From positions 1 to 64,000 of the forward strand of contig NZ_JQEY01000006.1 of the NCBI RefSeq assembly GCF_000743715.1: a DNA stretch of 64,000 nt, given 5' to 3'. Position numbers and translations under genes: made by a program. The notes beneath the pieces were generated by a model that saw nothing but the letters and a program-made list of their open reading frames with translations, was not told the origin of the DNA and searched no databases. Positions 50,375 through 60,777 of the stretch are shown here, one piece after another. How positions within the stretch are numbered: the first letter of the stretch is position 1; every line of letters starts with the position of its first letter. The stretch comes from Palleronia rufa. Its GTDB lineage: Bacteria; Pseudomonadota; Alphaproteobacteria; Rhodobacterales; Rhodobacteraceae.

Positions 50375-51364
50375 TCACTCGGCCGGCAGACGGTCGGCCC
50401 TTTTACTGCGAGTGGGACCGGCATGGGTGCCGTTGAGTTCCGCCTCTACGATAGGGCGGTTCATCCGCTTCGATTGCTGGAAGATCCGCCCGACATACTC
50501 GCCGATGATGCCCATGAACATCGCGTTGAGCGTTATGGACATCAGCAGCAGAATCGTCGTGGTCGCGAAACCGGCCGGCCAGTCTTGGCCCAGCAGGAGC
50601 TTGCCGAAAAGGTAGCCGATCAGCAGGACGAAGGTCACGGTGCCGACGGTGAGGCTTGTCAGCGTCGCGATCCGCAATGGCACGAGCGAGTGGTTCACGA
50701 TTCCGTCGATCGCCAGAGACATCATGGCCCGAAACGGAAATTTGCTGACCCCCGCCACCCGGGCGTCGCGGTCGTATTCGAAACCGGTCTGTTTAAAGCC
50801 CATTGCGCTGATCAGACCCCGCAGGTAGGGCGTGCTGTCCTGCAGATCCGCAAGTTGGTCAAGGATACGGCGATCGACCAGCCGGAATTCACCGACATTC
50901 TGGGGCAGATCGTCCTCACTCAGCCGGTCGATTACCGCATAGAAACTGCGCCGCAACATGGTGACGACGGGCCCGTCCGGCAGACCCCTGCGAATTCCGA
51001 AGACGACGGCGTTGCCGTCTTGCCAACTCTTCAGCATTCGCGGAATCAATTCCGGCGGATCCTGCAGATCGGCGTCGAGCTGGACCGCACAGTCGCCTGT
51101 CGCAGCCTGATACGCCATCAGGAGCGACCTTTGGTAGCCGCAGTTGCGCGACCACCGAAACACACGCACCCGCGGATCGGTTTTGGCCAACGTGGATAAT
51201 AGCGCGAATGTCTGATCGGTGGAGTGATTGTCCGCGAAGATCAGCTCCAGCTCATGCTCTGGCAGGGCCTCGAAGACATTCGCGATGCGGCCGTAGGCGC
51301 GCATCACATTGTCTTCTTCGTTGTAAACGGGGACGATGACTGTCACCTTCGTGGTCTCAAGCAT
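50375..51364 (-). CDS. GT2 polyisoprenyl-phosphate glycosyltransferase
   Basis: A 329-residue family-2 glycosyltransferase of the DPM1/GtrB/ArnC kind: VTVIVPVYNEEDNVMRAYGR at the start, ADNHSTDQT, the DxD-type QLDADLQDPPELIP, and two C-terminal helices (about 232-262 and 269-290) for membrane attachment. Such enzymes load a sugar onto undecaprenyl phosphate. It is last in the seven-gene CDP-sugar operon; its start overlaps the SDR stop (TGATG). IS relics lie just downstream. Confidence 0.9.
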   Translation of the reverse strand: MLETTKVTVIVPVYNEEDNVMRAYGRIANVFEALPEHELELIFADNHSTDQTFALLSTLAKTDPRVRVFRWSRNCGYQRSLLMAYQAATGDCAVQLDADLQDPPELIPRMLKSWQDGNAVVFGIRRGLPDGPVVTMLRRSFYAVIDRLSEDDLPQNVGEFRLVDRRILDQLADLQDSTPYLRGLISAMGFKQTGFEYDRDARVAGVSKFPFRAMMSLAIDGIVNHSLVPLRIATLTSLTVGTVTFVLLIGYLFGKLLLGQDWPAGFATTTILLLMSITLNAMFMGIIGEYVGRIFQQSKRMNRPIVEAELNGTHAGPTRSKRADRLPAE

Positions 51365-52314
51365 CAGACGTGTCCTCCTCCGATTACGGCAAGTCGCGGC
51401 TTGCGGCGCTCTACGGCCAGGGTTCTGGAGATGCCCTCGCGCAGCGTCAATGCCGGCTGCCATCCAAGCCTGTCGCGCAGGCGCTGGTTGTTGGCGATCA
51501 GGATGCTGGGCGAGCCCGCAGGCGTCCCGTAGCGGACCAGCCCCGGATCGGCGCCGGTCAGGTCCAGCACCGTTTCCGCGAGGTCGCGCATCGTCGGTGC
51601 GATCCCGGTCGACAGGTTGATGAGGCCAGGGCGGCCCGCGATCTTGCGCAGACCAGCAACGACATCGTCCACGTGGATCAGATCGCGACGATCGTCCGGA
51701 CATTGGATCGTCACCGTCCGGCCGGCAGGAAGATCCTCCATGAGCCGTGCCGCAAGGAAGGCGGTTGACTGGCCGGGGCCGTAGGTCAGGGCCAGCCGGG
51801 CGGTGGCGGCAGGAAAAGGCAGGTTCGAGGCCATCGCCTGAAGATAGAACGTTCCGGCAAGCAAGGCGGAGCCGTAGGCCGCATTGGGTGCGGCGGTGTC
51901 TTCTTCGGAGAAACTTCCGTTTCTGGAGCCATATTCCGCGATGCTGCCGGCACGTACAAAGCCGCTTGGCGGCCGTTCAGATGATGCGGCGGCGGCGGCG
52001 ACGTTGACCAAAGGCCGCAGATCGCCGTCGATGCTTGCAACCCAGTCGCCCATATCCACCTGTGGCAGCCGGCGTGTCGTGGCTGCCAGATGGAAAACCA
52101 GATCGACAGGGCGGTCGTGGAACACCGCGTTCAGTGCGTCCCGGTCGTTGAGGTCCAGACGCAGGACGGTCAGAAGGGCACTGCGTTCTTCGACGGACGG
52201 CCGCATGGCGTCGGGACGGGCCAGCACGACGACTTCGTGACCGGACCCAAGGTAGGATGCGGTGAGATGACGGCCGATGAACCCATCGCCGCCGGTAATC
52301 AGAATGCGCGCCAT
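51364..52314 (-). CDS. Extended SDR (NAD-sugar epimerase/reductase-like), lacks active-site Lys
   Basis: A 316-residue nucleotide-sugar SDR. The cofactor loop GGDGFIG (8-14) and FHLAATTRR are present, as is S124 and Y147. In the YxxxK motif, however, the Lys is replaced: the sequence is AYGSALLAG, with Leu at 151. Loss of this Lys normally removes catalysis, so the protein may be a pseudo-enzyme or use another residue. In its operon it would be expected to reduce or epimerise the 4-keto sugar. Confidence 0.83.
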   Translation of the reverse strand: MARILITGGDGFIGRHLTASYLGSGHEVVVLARPDAMRPSVEERSALLTVLRLDLNDRDALNAVFHDRPVDLVFHLAATTRRLPQVDMGDWVASIDGDLRPLVNVAAAAASSERPPSGFVRAGSIAEYGSRNGSFSEEDTAAPNAAYGSALLAGTFYLQAMASNLPFPAATARLALTYGPGQSTAFLAARLMEDLPAGRTVTIQCPDDRRDLIHVDDVVAGLRKIAGRPGLINLSTGIAPTMRDLAETVLDLTGADPGLVRYGTPAGSPSILIANNQRLRDRLGWQPALTLREGISRTLAVERRKPRLAVIGGGHV

Positions 52315-52317
52315 GAC

Positions 52318-53574
52318 CTAGATAAGCCGCGGTTTGGGCAGTGGCACCAGAAACTGCCCGCCCAGGCTGCGAAACGCAGCCTGCTGTTCGATGATTTCGT
52401 CGAGAAGGTTCCAGGCTAGGATCAACATGACATCCGGTTTCTTTTCGGCAAGGACGTCCATCGGGTAGACCGGTATCAATGTGCCCGGGGTCAGCATGTT
52501 CTGCTTCGAGGGATCCGGGTCGACCAGGAAATCAATCCTGTCCGCCCCCAGATCGAAATAGTTGAGAAGCGTGTTGCCCCTTGCCGGCGCGCCGTAGCCG
52601 ACGACAGTCTTTCCGTCCGCGCGGAGGGCATCGATCATGCGTACCAGGTCGTTCCTGGCCGTATGCACGCGGGCGGAGAAGGCCTCCCATGTCACGCGTC
52701 CGGTCAGTCCGGCGGCCGCCTCGGCATCGAGGACTGCGGTCACGGCGGCGGAGGGCTGCTCTCCGGTATCCGTCCGGCGAATGTGGACCCGCATGGAGCC
52801 GCCATGGACGGGCAGGAGCTGCACATCGACGATGTCCATATCCGTAGCGGCAACAAGCTTTCTTATCGACAGCAGGCTCAGCTCCGACACACGCTCATGA
52901 CACAGGGTATCGAACTGGTTGCCCTGAAGGATCTTCGCGCACCACGGCACTTCGATCACCAGGGTCCCGTCGTCGGCAAGCAAGATCGCCACGGCGCGCA
53001 TGAAAGCGTGCAGATCGCCGATGTGATTGAATGCACTGGCGGTCATGACCAACATGGCCCGGCCATGCGTCTCTGCGATGCGGCGGGCGCTGACGTCCGT
53101 CAGGGCGGTTTGCAGCACCTCGACAGCGGGCGCGCCCCACGGCGCAGCGCCATCGGTTGCAATGTCATGACCGAGCGTCCGCGCGCCCGACCGGTTCGCG
53201 GCAGAGAGTATCAGGACTTCGTTGTATCCGATCTCGACAACGGGGCCGTGGCCCGCCCCCGCGTCCGTGTTCAGCGCCAGAGTTTCGAGACGATCTTTCG
53301 TTGCGGGGTTGTCGGACGGGGCGCAGGAGGTGCGCTCGCAGATGGTTTCGGGGATCCGGCCGGCGACCTGCACCAGACCGCACGACAGGCAGACGTTCGC
53401 ATCGAGCGGAAAGACGGCTTGGGGCTCCTGCGCCCTTTCCGGGCTGACGAACGCGGTCGCGGGGGGATGAAGTCCCATCGGCAGGAACAAGAACAGATCC
53501 TTCGACCCGCAGCAGCGACAGCGAACCAGCAGGTCCGGCCGAGAGATCCCTATGGCATTCGGCTTCAGGAACAC
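52318..53574 (-). CDS. Sugar C-methyltransferase-like protein with altered active site
   Basis: About 418 residues, laid out like NDP-keto-sugar C-3 methyltransferases (TylC3/TcaB9): N-terminal zinc knuckle C19/C22 and C62/C65, Rossmann core, and a well-kept C-terminal domain (GYGAPARGNTLLNYFDLGAD, then LILAWNLLDEII). The core deviates: the SAM loop usually like VEIASNDG reads VEIGYNEV, and the catalytic YHEH reads CHER, losing the His base. Start is taken as GTG at 53574 behind GGGAGA; the frame is open upstream. Activity uncertain. Confidence 0.8.
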   Translation of the reverse strand: MFLKPNAIGISRPDLLVRCRCCGSKDLFLFLPMGLHPPATAFVSPERAQEPQAVFPLDANVCLSCGLVQVAGRIPETICERTSCAPSDNPATKDRLETLALNTDAGAGHGPVVEIGYNEVLILSAANRSGARTLGHDIATDGAAPWGAPAVEVLQTALTDVSARRIAETHGRAMLVMTASAFNHIGDLHAFMRAVAILLADDGTLVIEVPWCAKILQGNQFDTLCHERVSELSLLSIRKLVAATDMDIVDVQLLPVHGGSMRVHIRRTDTGEQPSAAVTAVLDAEAAAGLTGRVTWEAFSARVHTARNDLVRMIDALRADGKTVVGYGAPARGNTLLNYFDLGADRIDFLVDPDPSKQNMLTPGTLIPVYPMDVLAEKKPDVMLILAWNLLDEIIEQQAAFRSLGGQFLVPLPKPRLI

Positions 53575-53713
53575 AAAAACATCTCCCGATAGATGACCTT
53601 GGCACTCTGGCCGGTTACGGGGGCACTCGAAAAACGCGCACTGGGCTGGGGACGGGGATGCCGTGCGGATCCGCGGACCGCGCATGGCCTGTCGACCTTC
53701 GGGTCGACTCCGA

Positions 53714-54877
53714 TCACACGCTAGCTTTCGGCGTAGAAGTCAGGACCGTGCTCTGTGCGACCCCTTCGAAAGGGACCTTCTGCGCGGCGTCGTCACGGTT
53801 TTCCGGTGCAAAGACCCGCCGCTTGAAAACCGCGTTGTAAGGCCAGGTCTCGACCCAGACATGGATAAAATGTGTCGCGACGATGGTCAGGACGATCACG
53901 GGCGGGAAGAACAGCAGCCCGGACACGAGGATGTTGTCCGTGAACAGGCCCAGTTTCTGAAAGACCAACCGGGTCGCCAGGTAGGTGTAGGGATGCACCA
54001 GGTAGAGGCTGTAGCTGACCGTACCGATATAGAGCAGCGGACGCATGGTCATGATATGGCTGGTCAAGCTTGAGGACCGGACCGCGAAGAAGAAATAGAG
54101 CGCTGTGGACAGGATCGTGGCCCAAGCGATGGGATTTCTCATTTCCTCATGGACGTAGGCGAAGTGGCCCTGGGAGGCGATGAACACGAGGAGTACGAAG
54201 GCCGCGGCTTCCATCATGCGGGACGACCTCAACGGCAGGCAGAAGCCACGATCGTAGGCCGTTCGGACCAAAAGGCCGAACAAGAAGTACAGGGTCGCCG
54301 GATAGATGACCGCGAAGGCCAAGGCGGCGACGATCGCGACAGCGCCGACGAAACTGTTCGGGCGCTTGATCGTGAAGAGAATCACCATGGCGGTCAGCAG
54401 GTAGAAGAATGCCTCGAACGTCAGGCTCCAGGCGTTCGGGGCCAGTTGCACGGTCGGGGTGAAGAGGTCCATGAAGGTGAGCGCGGCGAAGATCGCGAGC
54501 AGATTGTTGTTCTCTGGCATCTCCATCGTGATGGCATTCAGGACGACGAACACGATCGTCATGAAGAAAAACAGCGGGTAGATCCGAAAGAAACGCCGTG
54601 ACGCGAATTCCTTGAGATCGTAGCGCATCACGCTGGGCAGGATCACGAACCCGCTTATGGTGAAGAAGAAATAGACCCCATAGGTGCCGAAATTCCAGAA
54701 CGGCTCGCTTGCATTCACGAACCCCGTCCGGTCGGCGTAGGCATGCTCGCGCAAACCGTTGAGGGTATGCGCAAGGAACACCATCATTGCGGCGAGGCCG
54801 CGCAATCCATGGACCGCATAGTTGAACTCCCGCGATCCGGACGACGCCGGATCGGAGGACTGTGCCGATCGTGACAT
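53714..54877 (-). CDS. Acyltransferase-3 (OafA-like) membrane protein
   Basis: A 387-residue polytopic acyltransferase that O-acetylates surface sugars. N-terminal family motif NYAVHGLRGLAAMMVFLAHT, then ISGFVILPSVMRYDLKEFAS and RRFFRIYPLFF; about ten membrane helices and a C-terminal YSLYLVHPYTY. Start is the ATG overlapping the rfbH-like stop (TGATG); the frame's first codon is a TTG one codon earlier. It probably decorates the glycan made by this operon. Confidence 0.92.
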   Translation of the reverse strand: MSRSAQSSDPASSGSREFNYAVHGLRGLAAMMVFLAHTLNGLREHAYADRTGFVNASEPFWNFGTYGVYFFFTISGFVILPSVMRYDLKEFASRRFFRIYPLFFFMTIVFVVLNAITMEMPENNNLLAIFAALTFMDLFTPTVQLAPNAWSLTFEAFFYLLTAMVILFTIKRPNSFVGAVAIVAALAFAVIYPATLYFLFGLLVRTAYDRGFCLPLRSSRMMEAAAFVLLVFIASQGHFAYVHEEMRNPIAWATILSTALYFFFAVRSSSLTSHIMTMRPLLYIGTVSYSLYLVHPYTYLATRLVFQKLGLFTDNILVSGLLFFPPVIVLTIVATHFIHVWVETWPYNAVFKRRVFAPENRDDAAQKVPFEGVAQSTVLTSTPKASV

Positions 54878-56121
54878 CAAAAGTCCCTCGCGAAATCGTT
54901 GAATGTGGCGTGCATGTGATCCAGGTGCTTCTGCTCAAGACCGTGATGGCAGGCGAGCAGGATGCCGCCGCGCATGACGTCATCGGCCATCGGATACCCT
55001 TCGTCGCGGGTGCGTGAGGTGACCTTGGCCATGGCGGGCTGGCGCAGGATGTTGCCGGTGAAGACGGGACGCGTCTGGATATTGGCGCTTTCCAGGGCCA
55101 TCTGCATCTGCTTGCGCGTGAACGGGGCGTCCTTACGGATGGTCAGCGGGAAGGCAAGCCAGCCGGTCCGCGATCCGGGCAGCTGCTCCGGCATGATGAA
55201 CCAGTCCTTGTACTCTGCAAAGAACGCCGCCTGCGCCGCGAAGTTCTTTTCGCGCTCGGAGATGTTGGTGTCGAGCTTGGAGAGCTGCACAAGACCGAAG
55301 GCCGCGCCGATCTCGGACGGCTCCAGGTTGTAGCCCAGCTCCTCGAACAGGAACTTGGCGTCGTAATCGTAGCCGCCCAGCTGGATGCCGAACCGGTTCT
55401 CCGCGGTCTCGCTGTCCGCGAACAGCGACGATGTCCGCCCCCAGGAGCGCAGCAGCAGCGCCTTTCGTGCCAGCGCGTCGTCGCGGACGCAGAGCATCCC
55501 GCCGTTCCCGGCGCAGTTGATGACGTGGCTGCCGTAGAAGCTGGTCGTGGAGATGTCGGAATAGACGCCGGTCGAAATGCCGTCGATCGTGGCGCCCAGG
55601 GTATCGGCGCTGTCTTCGATCAGCAGCAGGTCGTGACGGTCCGCGATCTGGCGCAGCTTGCGCCAGTCCGGCAGGTTTCCGATCAGAGAGGGGATCATCA
55701 TCGCGCGCGTCTTGGGCCCGATCATTTCCTCGACCGCATCGACGTCGATGTTGTACGTGCCGGGCGCGCAATCGACGAAGACCGGCACCAGCCCGTTTCG
55801 GACGATGGGCGCGACGGTGGTCGCGAAGGTCAGCGCGGGCGTCAGCACCTCGTCGCCCGGCTGGAGACCCAGGATCTCCATCGCAATGTAGTTGGCCGAT
55901 GAGCCTGAGTTGACCATGATCCCGTGGGCCTTGTCGAAGAGCTTCGACACGCCGGCTTCCATCTTGCGCACGTTGCGGCCCATCTGGGTAGAGGTCCGAA
56001 GGGTCTCGACCACCGCGGCGATCTCTTCCTCGCCATGCACAGTCTGTCCGTAGTTCACGCGCAGTGGCGCGGCCCCAGCCGTCGTGCCCTCTACGCCGGT
56101 CCGTTGATCGATACGGGTCAT
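54877..56121 (-). CDS. RfbH/DdhC-type sugar 3-dehydratase without Fe-S cysteines
   Basis: A 414-residue DegT/DnrJ-fold protein. The PLP Lys is replaced by His (H199 in SFYGSHVINCAGNGGM), as in CDP-4-keto-6-deoxyglucose 3-dehydrase (E1, RfbH) and ColD. E1 proteins also carry a [2Fe-2S] Cys cluster after LRDWGR; here the region reads LRSWGRTSSLFADSETAENR with no Cys, as in the iron-independent ColD. Expected role: removing the C-3 hydroxyl from CDP-4-keto-6-deoxyhexose. No E3-type reductase gene is present, consistent with that. ATGA overlaps on both sides. Confidence 0.85.
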   Translation of the reverse strand: MTRIDQRTGVEGTTAGAAPLRVNYGQTVHGEEEIAAVVETLRTSTQMGRNVRKMEAGVSKLFDKAHGIMVNSGSSANYIAMEILGLQPGDEVLTPALTFATTVAPIVRNGLVPVFVDCAPGTYNIDVDAVEEMIGPKTRAMMIPSLIGNLPDWRKLRQIADRHDLLLIEDSADTLGATIDGISTGVYSDISTTSFYGSHVINCAGNGGMLCVRDDALARKALLLRSWGRTSSLFADSETAENRFGIQLGGYDYDAKFLFEELGYNLEPSEIGAAFGLVQLSKLDTNISEREKNFAAQAAFFAEYKDWFIMPEQLPGSRTGWLAFPLTIRKDAPFTRKQMQMALESANIQTRPVFTGNILRQPAMAKVTSRTRDEGYPMADDVMRGGILLACHHGLEQKHLDHMHATFNDFARDF

Positions 56122-57194
56122 GCCGCCGCTCCTTCGTATGTGGATATCTGGTGGTCGCTGACATCGCGCATGTCCTCACCGCGTGCCTGCGCGACGTACC
56201 ACGCCGCGGTGATGTCGAGCGTGCGCTCCAGCGCCAGCCTGGGCCGCCAACCCAGCCGGCTCGCCGCCTTGGTGCTGTCGAGTCGCAGGACGCCGGCCTC
56301 ATGCGGCGCGTCGTTGGACTGCGCCAGCGAGAGGCGCGGGGAGCCCTGCCCAGGCCAGCGGTCGCAGAGCATCTGGCAGACATGGCCCACGTCGGCCACG
56401 CCGCCAGGATCGGGACCGAAGTTCCAGCCATCGGCAAGCTGGTCCGCCTCCGGTCCCAACATTCCGGCCGCGAGGGTCAGATACCCGCCCAAGGGCTCCA
56501 GTACATGCTGCCATGGACGGATGCTGCGCGGGTTGCGGATCGCCAGTTCGGTATCGCCGAATGCCGCGCGCATGAAATCCGGGATCAGACGGTCCTCTGA
56601 CCAGTCGCCGCCGCCGATGACGTTGCCGGCACGTACCGATGCGATCCGCGGACCATCCGGCGCCTGAAAGAACGACGCGCGCCAGGACGCCGTCAGAAGC
56701 TCCGTGCAGCCCTTGGAGGCGGAGTAGGGATCCTTGCCGCCCATGGGGTCGCATTCGCGGTATCCCCAGACCCACTCGCGGTTGTCGTAGCACTTGTCGC
56801 TGGTGACCACGATCGCCGCGCGAAGCGACGGCATCCGCCGCGCGGCCTCCAGCACGTGGGCGGTCCCCATGACGTTGGTCGCGAAGGTGCCGACGGGATC
56901 GGCGTAGGATGCGCGCACCAGCGGCTGGGCGGCCATGTGGATCACCACATCCGCGTCCACGTCCCCGATCGCGGCGGTGAGGGCGGCAGGATCGCGGATG
57001 TCGGCGAACCGGCTGTCCACCAGGTCGTCCAGCCGCGCCGCGGTCCAGATGCCGTTCGGCTGGTCCGGCGGCAGCGCCACGCCCGTGACGCGCGCACCGA
57101 GACGTGCCAGCCAGAGAGCCAGCCAAGCGCCCTTGAAACCGGTATGCCCGGTCAGCAGCACATGCCGTCCGCTGAGGGCCGACAAGGTCGTCAC
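56118..57194 (-). CDS. ddhB: CDP-glucose 4,6-dehydratase
   Basis: SDR enzyme (358 residues) converting CDP-glucose to CDP-4-keto-6-deoxyglucose, also called RfbG. Seen: VLLTGHTGFKGAWLALWLAR (NAD loop with family-typical GHTGFKG), VVIHMAAQPLVRASYADP, and the intact YxxxK as YSASKGCTELL. RNPRSIRPWQHVLEPLGGYL is characteristic of this enzyme. GTG start overlaps the rfbF stop (GTGA). Confidence 0.95.
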   Translation of the reverse strand: MTTLSALSGRHVLLTGHTGFKGAWLALWLARLGARVTGVALPPDQPNGIWTAARLDDLVDSRFADIRDPAALTAAIGDVDADVVIHMAAQPLVRASYADPVGTFATNVMGTAHVLEAARRMPSLRAAIVVTSDKCYDNREWVWGYRECDPMGGKDPYSASKGCTELLTASWRASFFQAPDGPRIASVRAGNVIGGGDWSEDRLIPDFMRAAFGDTELAIRNPRSIRPWQHVLEPLGGYLTLAAGMLGPEADQLADGWNFGPDPGGVADVGHVCQMLCDRWPGQGSPRLSLAQSNDAPHEAGVLRLDSTKAASRLGWRPRLALERTLDITAAWYVAQARGEDMRDVSDHQISTYEGAAA

Positions 57195-57994
57195 TTGACC
57201 ATTTCCATCCTGGAGGGCGGTACGGTCGCCCAGGGCGGCGTGCCCTCTTCGCAGAGGGTGTCGAGAAAAGTCCGGTCACGGATCGTGTCCATCGGATGCC
57301 AGAAGCCGTAGTGCTTGAACGCCATCAACTGACCGTCCTTGGCGATATTGGTCAGCGGCACCTGTTCCAGCGGATCGTCGTCGCCGGGGATGTAGTCAAG
57401 CACGCCGGGCTCGAACACGAAGAAGCCGCCGTTGATCCAGGTCTCATGCTTGCGCACCTTCTCCGTGAATTCGTTCACGCGGCCCGAATCGTCATCGGCG
57501 AGCTCCAGGTTGCCGAATCGCGCCGGCGGCTGAACGGCCGTGACCGTCGCCAGCTTGCCGTGGCTGCGGTGGAACGCCAGAAGCGCGTCGATGTCGATAT
57601 TCCCGACCCCGTCCGAATAGGTCACCATGAACGTGTCGTCGCCGATCCAGTCGCGAAGGCGCTTGAGACGTCCGCCGGTCATGGTCTTGGCGCCCGTGTC
57701 CACGACCGAGATCTTCCAGTCCCGCTCTGCCACGGGCGTCAGATCGCAGGTGCCCAGCGCGGGAGAAACCGTGATGTCATTCGTCACCAGGTGGAAATTC
57801 GAGAAGTACTGCTTGAGCAGAATCGACTTGTAGCCGGCCGCGACGATGAAATCCGAATATCCGAACTGGTTGTAGATATCCATCACGTGGACGATGATCG
57901 GCTTGCCGCCGACATCGACCATCGGCTTGGGAATCCGAACCGTCTCCTCGGCAAGGCGGGATCCGAGTCCCCCGGCGAGCAATACGACCTTCAT
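57191..57994 (-). CDS. rfbF: Glucose-1-phosphate cytidylyltransferase
   Basis: Makes CDP-glucose from CTP and glucose-1-phosphate (267 residues; also DdhA). Nucleotidyltransferase start MKVVLLAGGLGSRLAEETVR followed by IPKPMVDVGGKPI; NQFGYSDFIVAAGYKS, VTYSDGVGNIDIDALLAFH and FWHPMDTIRDR are typical of this enzyme. The start is the ATG at 57994 with GGAGGAC before it, not the longer frame. It opens the seven-gene operon; its upstream region is shared with the divergent formyltransferase gene. Confidence 0.96.
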   Translation of the reverse strand: MKVVLLAGGLGSRLAEETVRIPKPMVDVGGKPIIVHVMDIYNQFGYSDFIVAAGYKSILLKQYFSNFHLVTNDITVSPALGTCDLTPVAERDWKISVVDTGAKTMTGGRLKRLRDWIGDDTFMVTYSDGVGNIDIDALLAFHRSHGKLATVTAVQPPARFGNLELADDDSGRVNEFTEKVRKHETWINGGFFVFEPGVLDYIPGDDDPLEQVPLTNIAKDGQLMAFKHYGFWHPMDTIRDRTFLDTLCEEGTPPWATVPPSRMEMVK

Positions 57995-58208
57995 GCAGAC
58001 GTCCTCCGTTTCTGGACCGGCCCACCCGGCACCCGGGGCTGCAATCAGGTGTAGCGGAGACGCGTCGGGAATGAATGCCCTATGAGGGCCGTATTCGTCC
58101 CTCAAAAGGTGTATTCGGAGAGCAAATGTTCAGTTGAAGAGCGGCCGCAGGGCGGCTCATCCATGGTGCGGGCCGATCGGTCCGGGAACGACAACGCAGG
58201 TGCGCAGG

Positions 58209-59123
58209 ATGATTGACAGGGCTGATCGGCCGAAGACGGCATTTCTCGGTGCGGTTGAGGGGTCTCGCCGGGCGTTGGAGGCTCTGTGCGATGCCGGTCA
58301 TGTTCCGGATCTGGTCCTGACCATACCGGCAGAGGCCGCGGCGCGTCATTCCGACTACGCCGATCTGGCAGAGGTGGCGCGCAAGCATGATGTGCCGGTG
58401 TTCGAGACCAAGGACATCAACGACACAGCGACCCTGGCGGAACTGCGCGATCTTGCACCGGATTTGATCCTGGTCATCGGCTGGTCGCAGATCGCCAAGG
58501 CGGACTTTCGCGCCGTCCCGCGGCTCGGCACCGTCGGCTTTCACCCGGCGCCGCTGCCGCGCCTGCGCGGCCGCGCGGCCATTCCCTGGACCATCCTGGC
58601 TGGCCTTCAGGAGACCGCCGCGACGCTCTTCTGGATCGACGAGGGTTGCGACAGCGGCGATATTCTGATCCAGGGCGCCTTTCCGGTGGAGGCGCGGGAA
58701 ACCGCACGCAGCCTCTACGACAAGCAGATAGAGACGCTGTGCCGCATCCTGCCGGAGGCGCTCGACCGCATCGCCGCGGGCGACGACATCCGCACGCGCC
58801 AGGACGGCGCGCAGGCAAGCTACTGCGCCCGCCGCACGGCAGAGGACGGCAGGATCGACTGGACGCTGACCGCGGCTGACGTCGACCGGCTGATTCGTGC
58901 GGTGGGAGAGCCCTATCCCGGAGCCTTCACCGATCATGCCAAGGGGCGGCTCTGGATCGACTCGGCCAGGGTCCACGACGGTCCGCCGGGATATATCGGG
59001 ATGCCCGGTCAACTTCAGGAAGTTGGCGACACGCTCATCGTCAACTGCGCGGGCTTCTCGGCGATAGAGGTGATTGGATGGCGGGGTGAGCTTCCTGCCC
59101 GCCACACGGTGATGGGCCGATGA
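58209..59123 (+). CDS. Formyltransferase-fold protein (Fmt/ArnA-like)
   Basis: A 304-residue protein of the formyltransferase family. The folate-side motif reads GTVGFHPAPLPRLRGRAAIP with H112, and CDSGDIL supplies the catalytic Asp. The Asn usually two residues before the His is Gly here, as in some non-tRNA members. Residues 200-300 form a C-terminal OB-like domain (RTAEDGRIDWTLTAADVDRL, VIGWRGELP). A sugar-amine or amino-acid formyltransferase for the glycan is more likely than methionyl-tRNA formyltransferase, from context. Couples by ATGA to the next gene. Confidence 0.8.
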   Translation: MIDRADRPKTAFLGAVEGSRRALEALCDAGHVPDLVLTIPAEAAARHSDYADLAEVARKHDVPVFETKDINDTATLAELRDLAPDLILVIGWSQIAKADFRAVPRLGTVGFHPAPLPRLRGRAAIPWTILAGLQETAATLFWIDEGCDSGDILIQGAFPVEARETARSLYDKQIETLCRILPEALDRIAAGDDIRTRQDGAQASYCARRTAEDGRIDWTLTAADVDRLIRAVGEPYPGAFTDHAKGRLWIDSARVHDGPPGYIGMPGQLQEVGDTLIVNCAGFSAIEVIGWRGELPARHTVMGR

Positions 59124-60106
59124 GCGCACCCGTCCGCGTTCTCTTCACATCGGCCGGACGTCGTGCCGGTCTGGTCGCGTGTTTTCGCCAAAGTGCGGAG
59201 GCGCTCGGCCACCGGATCGAAGTTCACGCCTGCGATCTCTCGCCCGGGCTCAGCGCCGCGTGTCTGGCGGCGGAGCATGCCTTTCAGGTGCCGCGCTGCA
59301 CCGATGCCGGCTATATCGACGCCCTCCTTCAGTATTGCGATGCGCAGGCGATTGGCCTCCTGGTGCCCACCATCGACACCGAACTGGCCGTGTTGGCACG
59401 GTCTGCAGACCGGTTTGCGGCGCATGGAACCCGCGTCCACGTGGGATCCGAAGACTATATCGACGTGATCCGCGACAAGGGCGAGACCTGTGCCCGCCTG
59501 GCCCGGGCAGGGCTGGCCGTGCCGCGCACCTTCACGCTCGACGATCTGCGCGCGCCCGGGGCCGACCTGCCGTGGCCACTTTTCGCCAAACCCGCGGGGG
59601 GCAGCGCCAGCCGTGGGCTGGCCGTGCTCGAGGGGCCCGGGGACGTGGAGCGGGACTATCCGGAGCCGATGATCTTTCAGGAGTTCCTTCGGGGGCCGGA
59701 ATACACGATCAACGTGTTCGTGGACCGCGGCGGCCAATTTCGTACCGCCGTTCCGCACCTGCGGATTTCCGTCCGTGCCGGTGAGGTCGAAAAGGGGCGC
59801 ACCGTCCGGGATCCGCGTTTCACGCGGATCGCCCGCCAGCTTGTTGCGGCCATCCCTGGCGCGTCTGGCGCGCTGTGCTTTCAGCTCATCGACGATCCGG
59901 ACCGTGGCCCCTGCGTGTTCGAGATCAATGCGCGGTTCGGCGGAGGCTACCCGTTGGCACACGCATCCGGCGCGGTTTTCGCGCGCTGGCTTCTGGAAGA
60001 AATCACCGGACAGCCCGGCAGCGCCCATGACGACTGGGCGGCGGGGGTGGAGATGATCCGCTACGACGCAGCGATCTTCCGCGATGCAGAAGGCAACCGG
60101 CTGTGA
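59120..60106 (+). CDS. ATP-grasp ligase, unknown substrate
   Basis: A 328-residue ATP-grasp enzyme of the CarB-like small type found in polysaccharide loci. N-terminal VLFTSAGRRAGLVACFRQSA, PTIDTELAVLARSADRF, ATP loops PLFAKPAGGSASRGLAVL and IFQEFLRGPEYTINVFVD, and the Mg-binding CVFEINARFGGGYPLAHA. It should join a carboxylate, through an acyl-phosphate, to an amine or thiol. It overlaps its neighbours by four bases each side, between a formyltransferase and a HAD gene. Confidence 0.83.
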   Translation: MSAPVRVLFTSAGRRAGLVACFRQSAEALGHRIEVHACDLSPGLSAACLAAEHAFQVPRCTDAGYIDALLQYCDAQAIGLLVPTIDTELAVLARSADRFAAHGTRVHVGSEDYIDVIRDKGETCARLARAGLAVPRTFTLDDLRAPGADLPWPLFAKPAGGSASRGLAVLEGPGDVERDYPEPMIFQEFLRGPEYTINVFVDRGGQFRTAVPHLRISVRAGEVEKGRTVRDPRFTRIARQLVAAIPGASGALCFQLIDDPDRGPCVFEINARFGGGYPLAHASGAVFARWLLEEITGQPGSAHDDWAAGVEMIRYDAAIFRDAEGNRL

Positions 60107-60777
60107 GCCGCCCGTTCATCGTCTTCGACATGGACGACACGCTCTACCTGGAGCGCGATTTCTGCCTTTCCGGCTACCGCGCCGTCGGCGACGCGGCCCG
60201 GTCCGAGTTCGGCATCGACGGGCTGGAGGCCGCGGCAGGCAAGCTGTTTCTGGGCGGAGAGCGGTCGCGGATCTTCGATCGCGCTCTGACGGCGCTGGGC
60301 CACGCACCGGATCGGGGCATGGTAGACCATTTCGTTTCGATCTACCGGAGCCACATGCCCCGCATTGCACTCGCTCCCGACGCACGGAGGTACCTGGAGC
60401 GGATGGAGGGGCCGGGTGGATTGATCACCGACGGTCCTGCCGCGACCCAGGGTTCGAAGGCGGCGGCCCTGGGGCTTTCCAGGTGGCTGGATCCCATCCT
60501 GCTGACCGGCGCCATGGGCGCGGGGGCCGGCAAGCCGTCGCCGGTCGCCTACGCGGAGGTGGAGCGGCTGACAGGGCGGGCGGGCGACACCCTTGCCTAT
60601 GTCGCGGACAACCCGGCCAAGGATTTCGTCACGCCCCGGGCCCGCGGATGGCGCACCGTTATGATCGCCCGGGCCGAGCGCGTGCACACCGCGCCCGCGC
60701 CGAATGCTGCGCATGAGGCGCATCGCCGGATCGAGACGCTCGATGCCCTGGACGCCGCTCTGGACCTTATCGGCTGA
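60103..60777 (+). CDS. HAD-superfamily hydrolase
   Basis: A 224-residue HAD phosphatase: nucleophile D9 and acid D11 in VFDMDDTLYLERDF, Thr motif LITDGPAATQGSKAAA, Lys in GAGKPSPVAYAEV, and acidic motif YVADNPAKDF. GTG start overlapping the ATP-grasp stop (GTGA). Its 3' end overlaps the convergent GT39-like gene by 11 bases. Substrate unknown; position suggests a phosphorylated sugar or intermediate of the cassette. Confidence 0.85.
   Translation: MSRPFIVFDMDDTLYLERDFCLSGYRAVGDAARSEFGIDGLEAAAGKLFLGGERSRIFDRALTALGHAPDRGMVDHFVSIYRSHMPRIALAPDARRYLERMEGPGGLITDGPAATQGSKAAALGLSRWLDPILLTGAMGAGAGKPSPVAYAEVERLTGRAGDTLAYVADNPAKDFVTPRARGWRTVMIARAERVHTAPAPNAAHEAHRRIETLDALDAALDLIG

Follow-up and report, generated by a model that had tools for sequence, protein, structure and literature searches.

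A formyltransferase, ATP-grasp ligase and HAD phosphatase cassette in Palleronia rufa as a candidate acylation module for a trideoxyhexose of the bacillosamine type

The stretch of DNA analysed here, referred to as the window, comprises 64,000 nucleotides of Palleronia rufa (contig NZ_JQEY01000006.1, positions 1 to 64,000) and contains a cassette of three genes for a formyltransferase-fold protein (FT), an ATP-grasp ligase (AG) and a HAD-family phosphatase (HAD), whose possible part in the acylation of an amino sugar is considered in this report. The three open frames lie on the plus strand and each junction is a 4-base overlap (ATGA and GTGA). FT (58209..59123, ATG start, 304 aa) has a formyltransferase fold followed by a C-terminal domain of the ArnA/Fmt type (Pfam PF00551, E 2.9e-21, and PF02911, E 6.4e-13, both over cut-off), and N-formylation of an amino sugar is proposed for it. 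AG (59120..60106, ATG, 328 aa) is a PylC-like ligase (PylC-like_N PF21360, E 8.6e-21; ATP-grasp_3 PF02655; ATPgrasp_Ter PF15632) that is proposed to couple an activated small carboxylic acid to a sugar amine, and HAD (60103..60777, GTG, 224 aa; PF00702, E 2.9e-7, and PF13419) may either release glycerate from phosphoglycerate or dephosphorylate a phosphoacyl product. None of the three had any NCBIfam model above cut-off. An earlier note on this DNA had described a one-carbon transferase, a carboxylate-amine ligase and a phosphatase, joined by 4-base overlaps and placed beside an operon for a cytidine diphosphate (CDP)-sugar, and the frames, the junction sequences and the Pfam and NCBIfam domains bear this description out.

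The catalytic residues of sugar N-formyltransferases are Asn-x-His...Asp. FT keeps His112 and Asp148, and in its active-site segment, LGTVGFHPAPLPRLRG, the order is Gly110-Phe-His112, with Gly110 in the place where the earlier note had missed the usual Asn. Because the triad is incomplete, FT is filed only as formyltransferase-fold on its motif. The Asn position was Gly in 30 of 31 rows (fetched-locus proteins with at least 120 bits against the FT profile, some being one gene fetched twice), and the remaining row, with Asn, was the Fmt of P. rufa itself. In every alphaproteobacterial FT row of the tree this Gly is followed by Phe or Tyr (Ala in genome G143) and then by the catalytic His. In that tree of 30 chosen rows, which included 7 of 15 neisserial FTs, 14 of 15 alphaproteobacterial rows formed a clade apart from Fmt (support 99), and the distant G143 protein fell outside. 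Gly for Asn is thus a clade-wide state and not a local defect. The earlier note was right that Asn is missing, but this is by itself no proof of another transferred group, since the substitution is clade-wide and the hydrolase domain of ALDH1L1 also does without Asn (it has Ile).

The P. rufa genome encodes four formyltransferase domains, namely PurN, Fmt and PurU, all above their NCBIfam cut-offs, and the cassette FT, which is for this reason not one of the housekeeping enzymes. Against TIGR00460 (fmt) the cassette FT scored 133.4, under the cut-off of 201.5, and the genome's own Fmt scored 250.6. One of the cases that would have overturned the earlier note, a second methionyl-tRNA formyltransferase, was rejected on these scores. 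The AlphaFold2 model of FT (predicted local distance difference test, pLDDT, 89.9) had full-length matches to Fmt and ArnA with Z about 31, and lower scores against ALDH1L1 (Z about 28) and WbkC (Z about 24). A separate observation concerns G143, where a DegT-FT-PIG-L-PGT run (aminotransferase, formyltransferase, deacetylase and phosphoglycosyl transferase, PGT; contig C17, locus L029, 8332-11990) contains the distant FT with the motif GAHASLLP, in which Gly is present and the SLLP loop is kept; no AG was found in that genome at E<=1e-30.

The AG model (pLDDT 94.3) had its best structural match in 2pn1 (Z 36.0), followed by biotin carboxylase, PurK, GAR synthetase and PylC (Z 25 to 27). Ligases of these kinds work via acyl phosphates, and the modelled fold does not tell which acid AG uses. 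Residues invariant in all 23 aligned sequences include Lys120, Lys157, Glu268 and Asn270. A tree of 48 rows (the AG of the window and 47 others selected out of 133) placed the alphaproteobacterial and the neisserial groups each on one side of a branch (support 96 and 99) against the other labelled groups; ten other ATP-grasp proteins stood apart without forming one clade, and the deep root was weak. In HAD, Asp9, Asp11, Lys144 and Asp169 were invariant in 12 of 12 aligned sequences and Thr109 was nearly so.

The order FT-AG-HAD on one strand recurs in plasmid records of Palleronia sp. THAF1, Ensifer canadensis, Sinorhizobium mexicanum, Rhizobium gallicum and Ensifer sp. PDNC004, and in genome contigs of Roseivivax, R. 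mongolense, Ensifer sp. and E. adhaerens (loci L030, L042, L045 and L055). More elaborate operons are found in Kaistia and Frigidibacter (PGT-FT-PIG-L-DegT-AG-HAD; L046, L050) and at four Sphingomonadales loci (PGT-FT-PIG-L-AG-HAD; L051, L053, L057, L060), and Leisingera and Roseibium each have FT-PIG-L-DegT and AG-HAD as separate blocks of a single plasmid, with some 18 and 28 kb between them, respectively. AG relatives were present in 33 plasmid records (E<=1e-20) and HAD relatives in 31 (E<=1e-10), largely from the same genera, and HAD was the gene next to AG in 10 of 12 AG plasmid records that were opened. Phyletic distribution was followed in the Rhodobacteraceae-family set of 198 genomes (197 genera), where FT occurred in 5 (E<=1e-30), AG in 4 and PIG-L in 7, four of the latter at E<1e-80. 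The same four genomes (G000, G066, G057 and G105) held FT, AG and PIG-L at E<1e-80, so that the AG set and this PIG-L set are identical and lie within the FT set; G143 had its distant FT and a weaker PIG-L without AG, and G033 and G154 had a weaker PIG-L only. That all four AG genomes fall among the five FT genomes corresponds to a hypergeometric P of about 8e-8, a figure that assumes independent genomes, which relatedness violates. The neighbourhood survey proposed in the earlier note thus found the gene order again in other genera, and since FT, AG and PIG-L also share their phyletic profile, the recurrence of the trio exceeds chance.

Two plasmids carry related genes in unusual surroundings. 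The 36.7 kb IncR plasmid of E. coli (L023) has an O-antigen-like block between transposase genes, with an AG relative, a pyridoxal phosphate (PLP) enzyme and a GNAT gene. In the plasmid of Ruegeria sp. B32 (L015, 1-15677) a large inverted repeat holds export, two family 4 glycosyltransferase (GT4), HAD, AG and nitroreductase genes twice, mirrored around a single FT.

The wider company of AG was surveyed in the best 80 of 580 matches to the AG alignment, drawn from many phyla. In 67 of these loci no more than 300 nt separated HAD from AG, and PGT was found in 52, DegT aminotransferase in 36 and PglF-type dehydratase in 31, with at least one of the latter three in 62. Actinobacillus, Aggregatibacter, Vibrio and Acinetobacter share the order PGT-AG-HAD-DegT-PglF (L074, L085, L089, L105), in which AG occupies the place that the acetyltransferase PglD would have in pgl loci. 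AG-HAD thus usually accompanies genes of the bacillosamine type. The P. rufa genome has the same partners at a distance from the cassette: contig C14 encodes a PglF and a DegT (59% and 70% identical to those of Palleronia THAF1), the latter keeping its PLP lysine (SFCQDK), as well as a PGT (PF02397). The genome also has a deacetylase closely related to the one encoded in the FT operons (PF02585; 67% to the Frigidibacter PIG-L, at 101662-102327 of contig C6), outside the window and 41 kb downstream of the cassette (contig C6, 101656-102336; L026, 17656-18336); its best NCBIfam match, BshB1, is below cut-off, and its neighbours are trehalose-phosphate genes and a Crp-type regulator, with no sugar cluster. 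The set includes this deacetylase. In G066 the cassette, PglF, DegT, PGT, PIG-L and the CDP genes are all on one replicon (contig C2, 90,721 bases). The genes, their order and co-occurrence, their family kinship and the presence of each proposed partner in the genome are established. A truncated second PglF-like gene was also seen at a contig end (G000 contig C26, L116, 1-516; 71% over 172 residues).

We propose, with confidence that stands at about even, that the cassette supplies the acylation steps of a pathway to a doubly N-acylated 2,4-diamino-2,4,6-trideoxyhexose, a sugar of the bacillosamine type, destined for exopolysaccharide. UDP-N-acetylglucosamine would be dehydrated by the PglF-like enzyme and aminated at C4 by the DegT enzyme, both encoded on contig C14. 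HAD and AG would next attach a small hydroxyacyl group to one amine, the likeliest case being glyceroyl at N4 by analogy with the neisserial glyceramido-acetamido trideoxyhexose (GATDH), with HAD either releasing glycerate from phosphoglycerate or removing the phosphate after ligation. PIG-L would free the other amine, N2, and FT would formylate it from 10-formyl-tetrahydrofolate (THF). The deacetylase makes sense of the alphaproteobacterial FT in that an acetyl group would be taken off and a formyl group put in its place. The best reading is accordingly a glyceroyl-type amide made by AG and HAD and an N-formyl group made by FT; the substrates, the acyl group, the assignment of each group to its amine and the order of steps are all inferred by us. 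For the proposed sugar an oxonium ion of m/z about 261.108 would be expected, as calculated from the published values for di-N-acetylbacillosamine (diNAcBac, 229.1) and GATDH (275.1).

Glyceroyl is the first guess for the acid because of a parallel with PglB2 of Neisseria. A review describes PglB2 as an ATP grasp/phosphoglycosyl transferase that makes GATDH (PMC11130364), and strain 8013 has a HAD gene between pglB2 and pglC, with cryo-EM placing acetamido at C2 and glyceramido at C4 of the sugar (PMC10948894). A figure legend (S2 Fig) in a further, comparative paper labels the pgl locus of N. oralis with a HAD hydrolase and a formyl transferase (PMC6959607). The open part of a genome paper on meningococcal pgl recombination does not mention formyl (PMC4212839).

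To follow this parallel, 46 genomes of the genus taken for Neisseria were searched, an assignment made on 1437 copies of the neisserial uptake sequence in G302. AG was found in 25 of them (E 1e-111 to 1e-120), and 20 of the 25 loci were read as stretches of 12-13 kb, five not being read in detail. AG, PGT, DegT and PglF were present in all 20, HAD in 18 and FT in 15. At one locus (L170) PGT and AG are fused in a protein of 527 aa, and its ligase portion is 34.9% identical to the AG of the window over 327 aa (E 3.9e-66). When whole genomes were searched, a formyltransferase match scoring 56 to 72 bits lay some 0.4 to 1.2 kb from AG in 17 of the 25 genomes with AG. Judged by score only, neisserial matches of 109 to 137 bits, the stronger group, were assigned to Fmt, and those of 42 to 54 bits, the weaker group, to PurN-like proteins. 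Matches of similar strength to those near AG occurred elsewhere in G939 (79 bits, no AG) and in G977 (60 bits, 1.9 Mb from AG, with a second piece directly after), the latter perhaps a broken Fmt. The standard Asn is present in each of the 15 neisserial FTs that were read, within the motif INFHPALLP or INFHPAILP, and the seven in the tree took a different place from the alphaproteobacterial FTs. Because they keep Asn and fall elsewhere in the tree, FT has likely been joined to AG-HAD at least twice, as the Gly type in alphaproteobacteria and as the Asn type in Neisseria. As a side observation, a few clustered neisserial uptake sequences, some as inverted pairs, were seen in small genomes of a single family (f41), on contig C28 of G208 (about 25-33 kb) and in G497, perhaps in DNA derived from Neisseria.

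A number of observations weigh against the proposed pathway. FT departs from the Asn-His-Asp triad and from the SLLP loop, and its tree is weak in the deep part (43 for the alphaproteobacterial group as a whole), with a long-branch warning that includes the neisserial FT. The latter is of another branch, so that the neisserial trio is a parallel and not the same cassette, and identity to the neisserial proteins is limited to 32 to 37% for AG and 27 to 33% for HAD. Among the neisserial loci read, 2 of 20 are without HAD (L176, L177) and 5 of 20 without FT, and PIG-L was found in none of the 20 stretches, so that the loci do not make a pair of free amines evident. For the type strain of N. oralis, which may or may not have the FT, GATDH was reported at m/z 275.1 and not a formylated form (PMC6959607). 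Within the best 80 of 580 AG loci FT was found in only 12, adjacent in 5, and PIG-L in 7; 11 had no HAD within 1500 nt of AG. A Segatella plasmid record has two short genes between AG and HAD, the E. coli plasmid L023 has AG without HAD, and pSymB of S. meliloti has FT and no AG match at E<=1e-20 in a search that covered the plasmid only; a different ATP-grasp gene is annotated on that plasmid, some 7.5 kb away. In P. rufa itself the partners are split, with PglF, DegT and PGT on another contig and PIG-L 41 kb off beside trehalose genes. Of these points the lack of PIG-L beside the neisserial FT is the main loose end, and for that reason confidence in the pathway is held at the even level given above. 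The neisserial FT may act otherwise, on another amine, in competition with AG or in building a tandem group.

A tandem group would arise if AG coupled serine, alanine or glycine to the amine of the sugar, FT formylated the amino group of that amino acid and HAD were a phosphoserine-type phosphatase. Use of a single amine suits those neisserial loci with FT and AG but no PIG-L, and the fold of AG also matches PylC (4ffr, Z 25.1), an enzyme that uses amino acids, but biotin carboxylase and PurK match it at least as closely. The alphaproteobacterial FT, however, often adjoins PIG-L, a sign that an amine of the sugar is set free; PglB2, the relative that has been characterised, yields glyceramide and not an amino acid (PMC11130364, PMC10948894); and the base sugar reported for N. 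oralis, m/z 275.1 (PMC6959607), fits glyceroyl. We therefore consider tandem acylation unlikely and glyceroyl, by this analogy, the more likely acyl group. Of the inference in the earlier note, a pathway that adds an N-acyl or N-formyl group to a sugar is upheld by the co-occurrence and by FT not being a second Fmt, and the amino-acid amide gives way to glyceroyl.

FT and AG could alternatively compete for one C4 amine and so produce alternative sugars, 4-formamido or 4-glyceramido, in mixed glycoforms. A single free amine is what the neisserial loci make evident, and the S. meliloti plasmid demonstrates that FT and AG are separable. The 4-base coupling seen here and the operons with PIG-L suggest sequential use instead, and the available part of PMC6959607 gives GATDH reporter ions with no formyl form, which leaves competition an unlikely account of the cassette.

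It is also conceivable, and distinctly unlikely in our view, that for want of the catalytic Asn FT acts as a 10-formyl-THF hydrolase or transfers another one-carbon group. The prevalence of Gly, with Fmt as the single departure, and the resemblance of the active-site segment to the hydrolase domain of ALDH1L1 are what this would explain. Yet the fold of FT is nearer to Fmt and ArnA than to ALDH1L1, FT sits with an amino-sugar deacetylase and an aminotransferase, and in neisserial AG-HAD loci the FT found in this same setting contains Asn in the 15 cases read.

The CDP-sugar operon (51364..57991, minus strand) lies upstream of FT and divergent from it, and the 217 bases between rfbF and FT (57992..58208) are a putative promoter region by position only, from the gene coordinates. 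The operon encodes RfbF, RfbG, an RfbH-like enzyme, an acyltransferase, a C-methyltransferase and an epimerase; RfbF (TIGR02623) and RfbG (TIGR02622) were above the NCBIfam cut-offs and the RfbH-like enzyme below. The latter (54877-56121) has the motif SFYGSH, with His in place of the PLP Lys as in the dehydratase type, so that the CDP branch should make no amine, and Pfam and NCBIfam scans found no aminotransferase in the operon. That the cassette decorates this CDP-sugar is favoured by adjacency and by RfbF and RfbG being present together in 14 of the best 80 of 580 AG loci. Against it stand the expected lack of an amine, the separation of the cassette and the CDP blocks by about 7 kb in Palleronia THAF1 and the restriction of the RfbF-RfbG pair to 13 alphaproteobacterial loci and one planctomycetal locus (L076), the others among those 80 being without it. 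As a substrate of the cassette the CDP-sugar was rejected on the His-for-Lys change and on the loci without CDP genes, and the idea seems improbable; the operon is judged from its sequence to belong to the same sugar region, to offer a poor and unlikely acceptor and not to be the substrate branch of the cassette. Two features of this region may be recorded in their own right. The RfbH-like enzyme beside the C-methyltransferase (PF08484) and the epimerase suggests a branch for a CDP-3,6-dideoxy, probably C-methylated sugar, and a DDE_3 transposase (PF13358; 48707-49564) just left of the sugar genes possibly marks a border of the polysaccharide region. Finally, a second methionyl-tRNA formyltransferase, as suggested by the Fmt-like domain order and fold of FT and by some public annotations, is hardly credible in view of the TIGR00460 scores and the separate tree clade.

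No description of the FT-AG-HAD trio, nor of the proposed formyl/glyceroyl trideoxyhexose, was found among the papers listed in searches of the open-access literature, and no paper there was found to link ATP-grasp with bacillosamine. The HAD and formyl transferase neighbours had already been seen in the N. oralis legend, with no function stated in that part of PMC6959607, and a paper on Tannerella mentions N-glyceroyl with no gene for it in its accessible text. Passages of a paper on Paracoccus EPS and of a review on marine antigens gave no lead. It is possible, and advanced tentatively, that alphaproteobacterial exopolysaccharides contain a sugar in which the 2-N-acetyl group has been swapped for formyl by PIG-L and FT and N4 carries a glyceroyl amide made by AG and HAD, perhaps by direct ligation of phosphoglycerate with the phosphate stripped afterwards; the AG-HAD pair would have been joined to FT twice, and a formylated relative of GATDH may exist in commensal Neisseria. 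The pathway would connect a gene trio without a name, present in exopolysaccharide clusters of marine and rhizobial bacteria, with the glyceramide sugar that Neisseria makes and would offer a reason for formyltransferase, deacetylase, ATP-grasp and HAD genes to travel together. It predicts a sugar of defined mass and gives the neisserial HAD gene a testable role as supplier or finisher of the acyl group. Assays of the free-standing AG-HAD-FT system should be simpler than those of PglB2, a membrane-bound fusion.

Among known systems, the closest solved structure to AG, 2pn1 of Exiguobacterium (E 2.2e-32, 31% identity), is called a carbamoylphosphate synthase large subunit by its depositors, whereas the neighbours of AG do not suggest carbamoyl phosphate synthesis. 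The N-terminal formyltransferase of ArnA, which acts on UDP-4-amino-4-deoxy-L-arabinose, shares with FT the Formyl_trans_N/C architecture, the His and Asp and the fold (2bln, Z 30.7), and matches to FT of about 30% on Pantoea plasmids were, where annotated, ArnA or located at an arn gene. FT differs from ArnA in having Gly for Asn, an APLP in place of the SLLP loop, no fused dehydrogenase half and other partners, and it scored 154.7 against a cut-off of 777 for the bifunctional ArnA model; orthology to ArnA was rejected on the motif and the genomic partners. The hydrolase domain of the 10-formyl-THF dehydrogenase ALDH1L1 shows that an enzyme with this fold can lack the catalytic Asn, with similar segments (IIYHPSLLPRHRG against VGFHPAPLPRLRG), and it differs by having Ile where FT has Gly, by being part of a dehydrogenase and by the lack of any sugar context.

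Another of the closest systems is PglB2 of Neisseria with the HAD gene downstream of it. AG belongs to the ATP-grasp subfamily of the PglB2 C-terminal half and has the same best NCBIfam model, NF009405, with all below its cut-off; HAD is directly beside AG, aminotransferase and dehydratase are partners, and an FT stands beside AG in 17 of 25 neisserial genomes. The systems differ in that AG is unfused to PGT, that the setting here is an exopolysaccharide region in contrast to protein glycosylation, that PIG-L belongs to the set, that FT is of another branch with Gly for Asn and that the partners are on another contig. PglB2 proper is an ATP-grasp fused to a monotopic PGT and AG is a free-standing protein of 328 aa; AG is not filed as PglB2, and by analogy it is taken to work like the ATP-grasp half of that enzyme.

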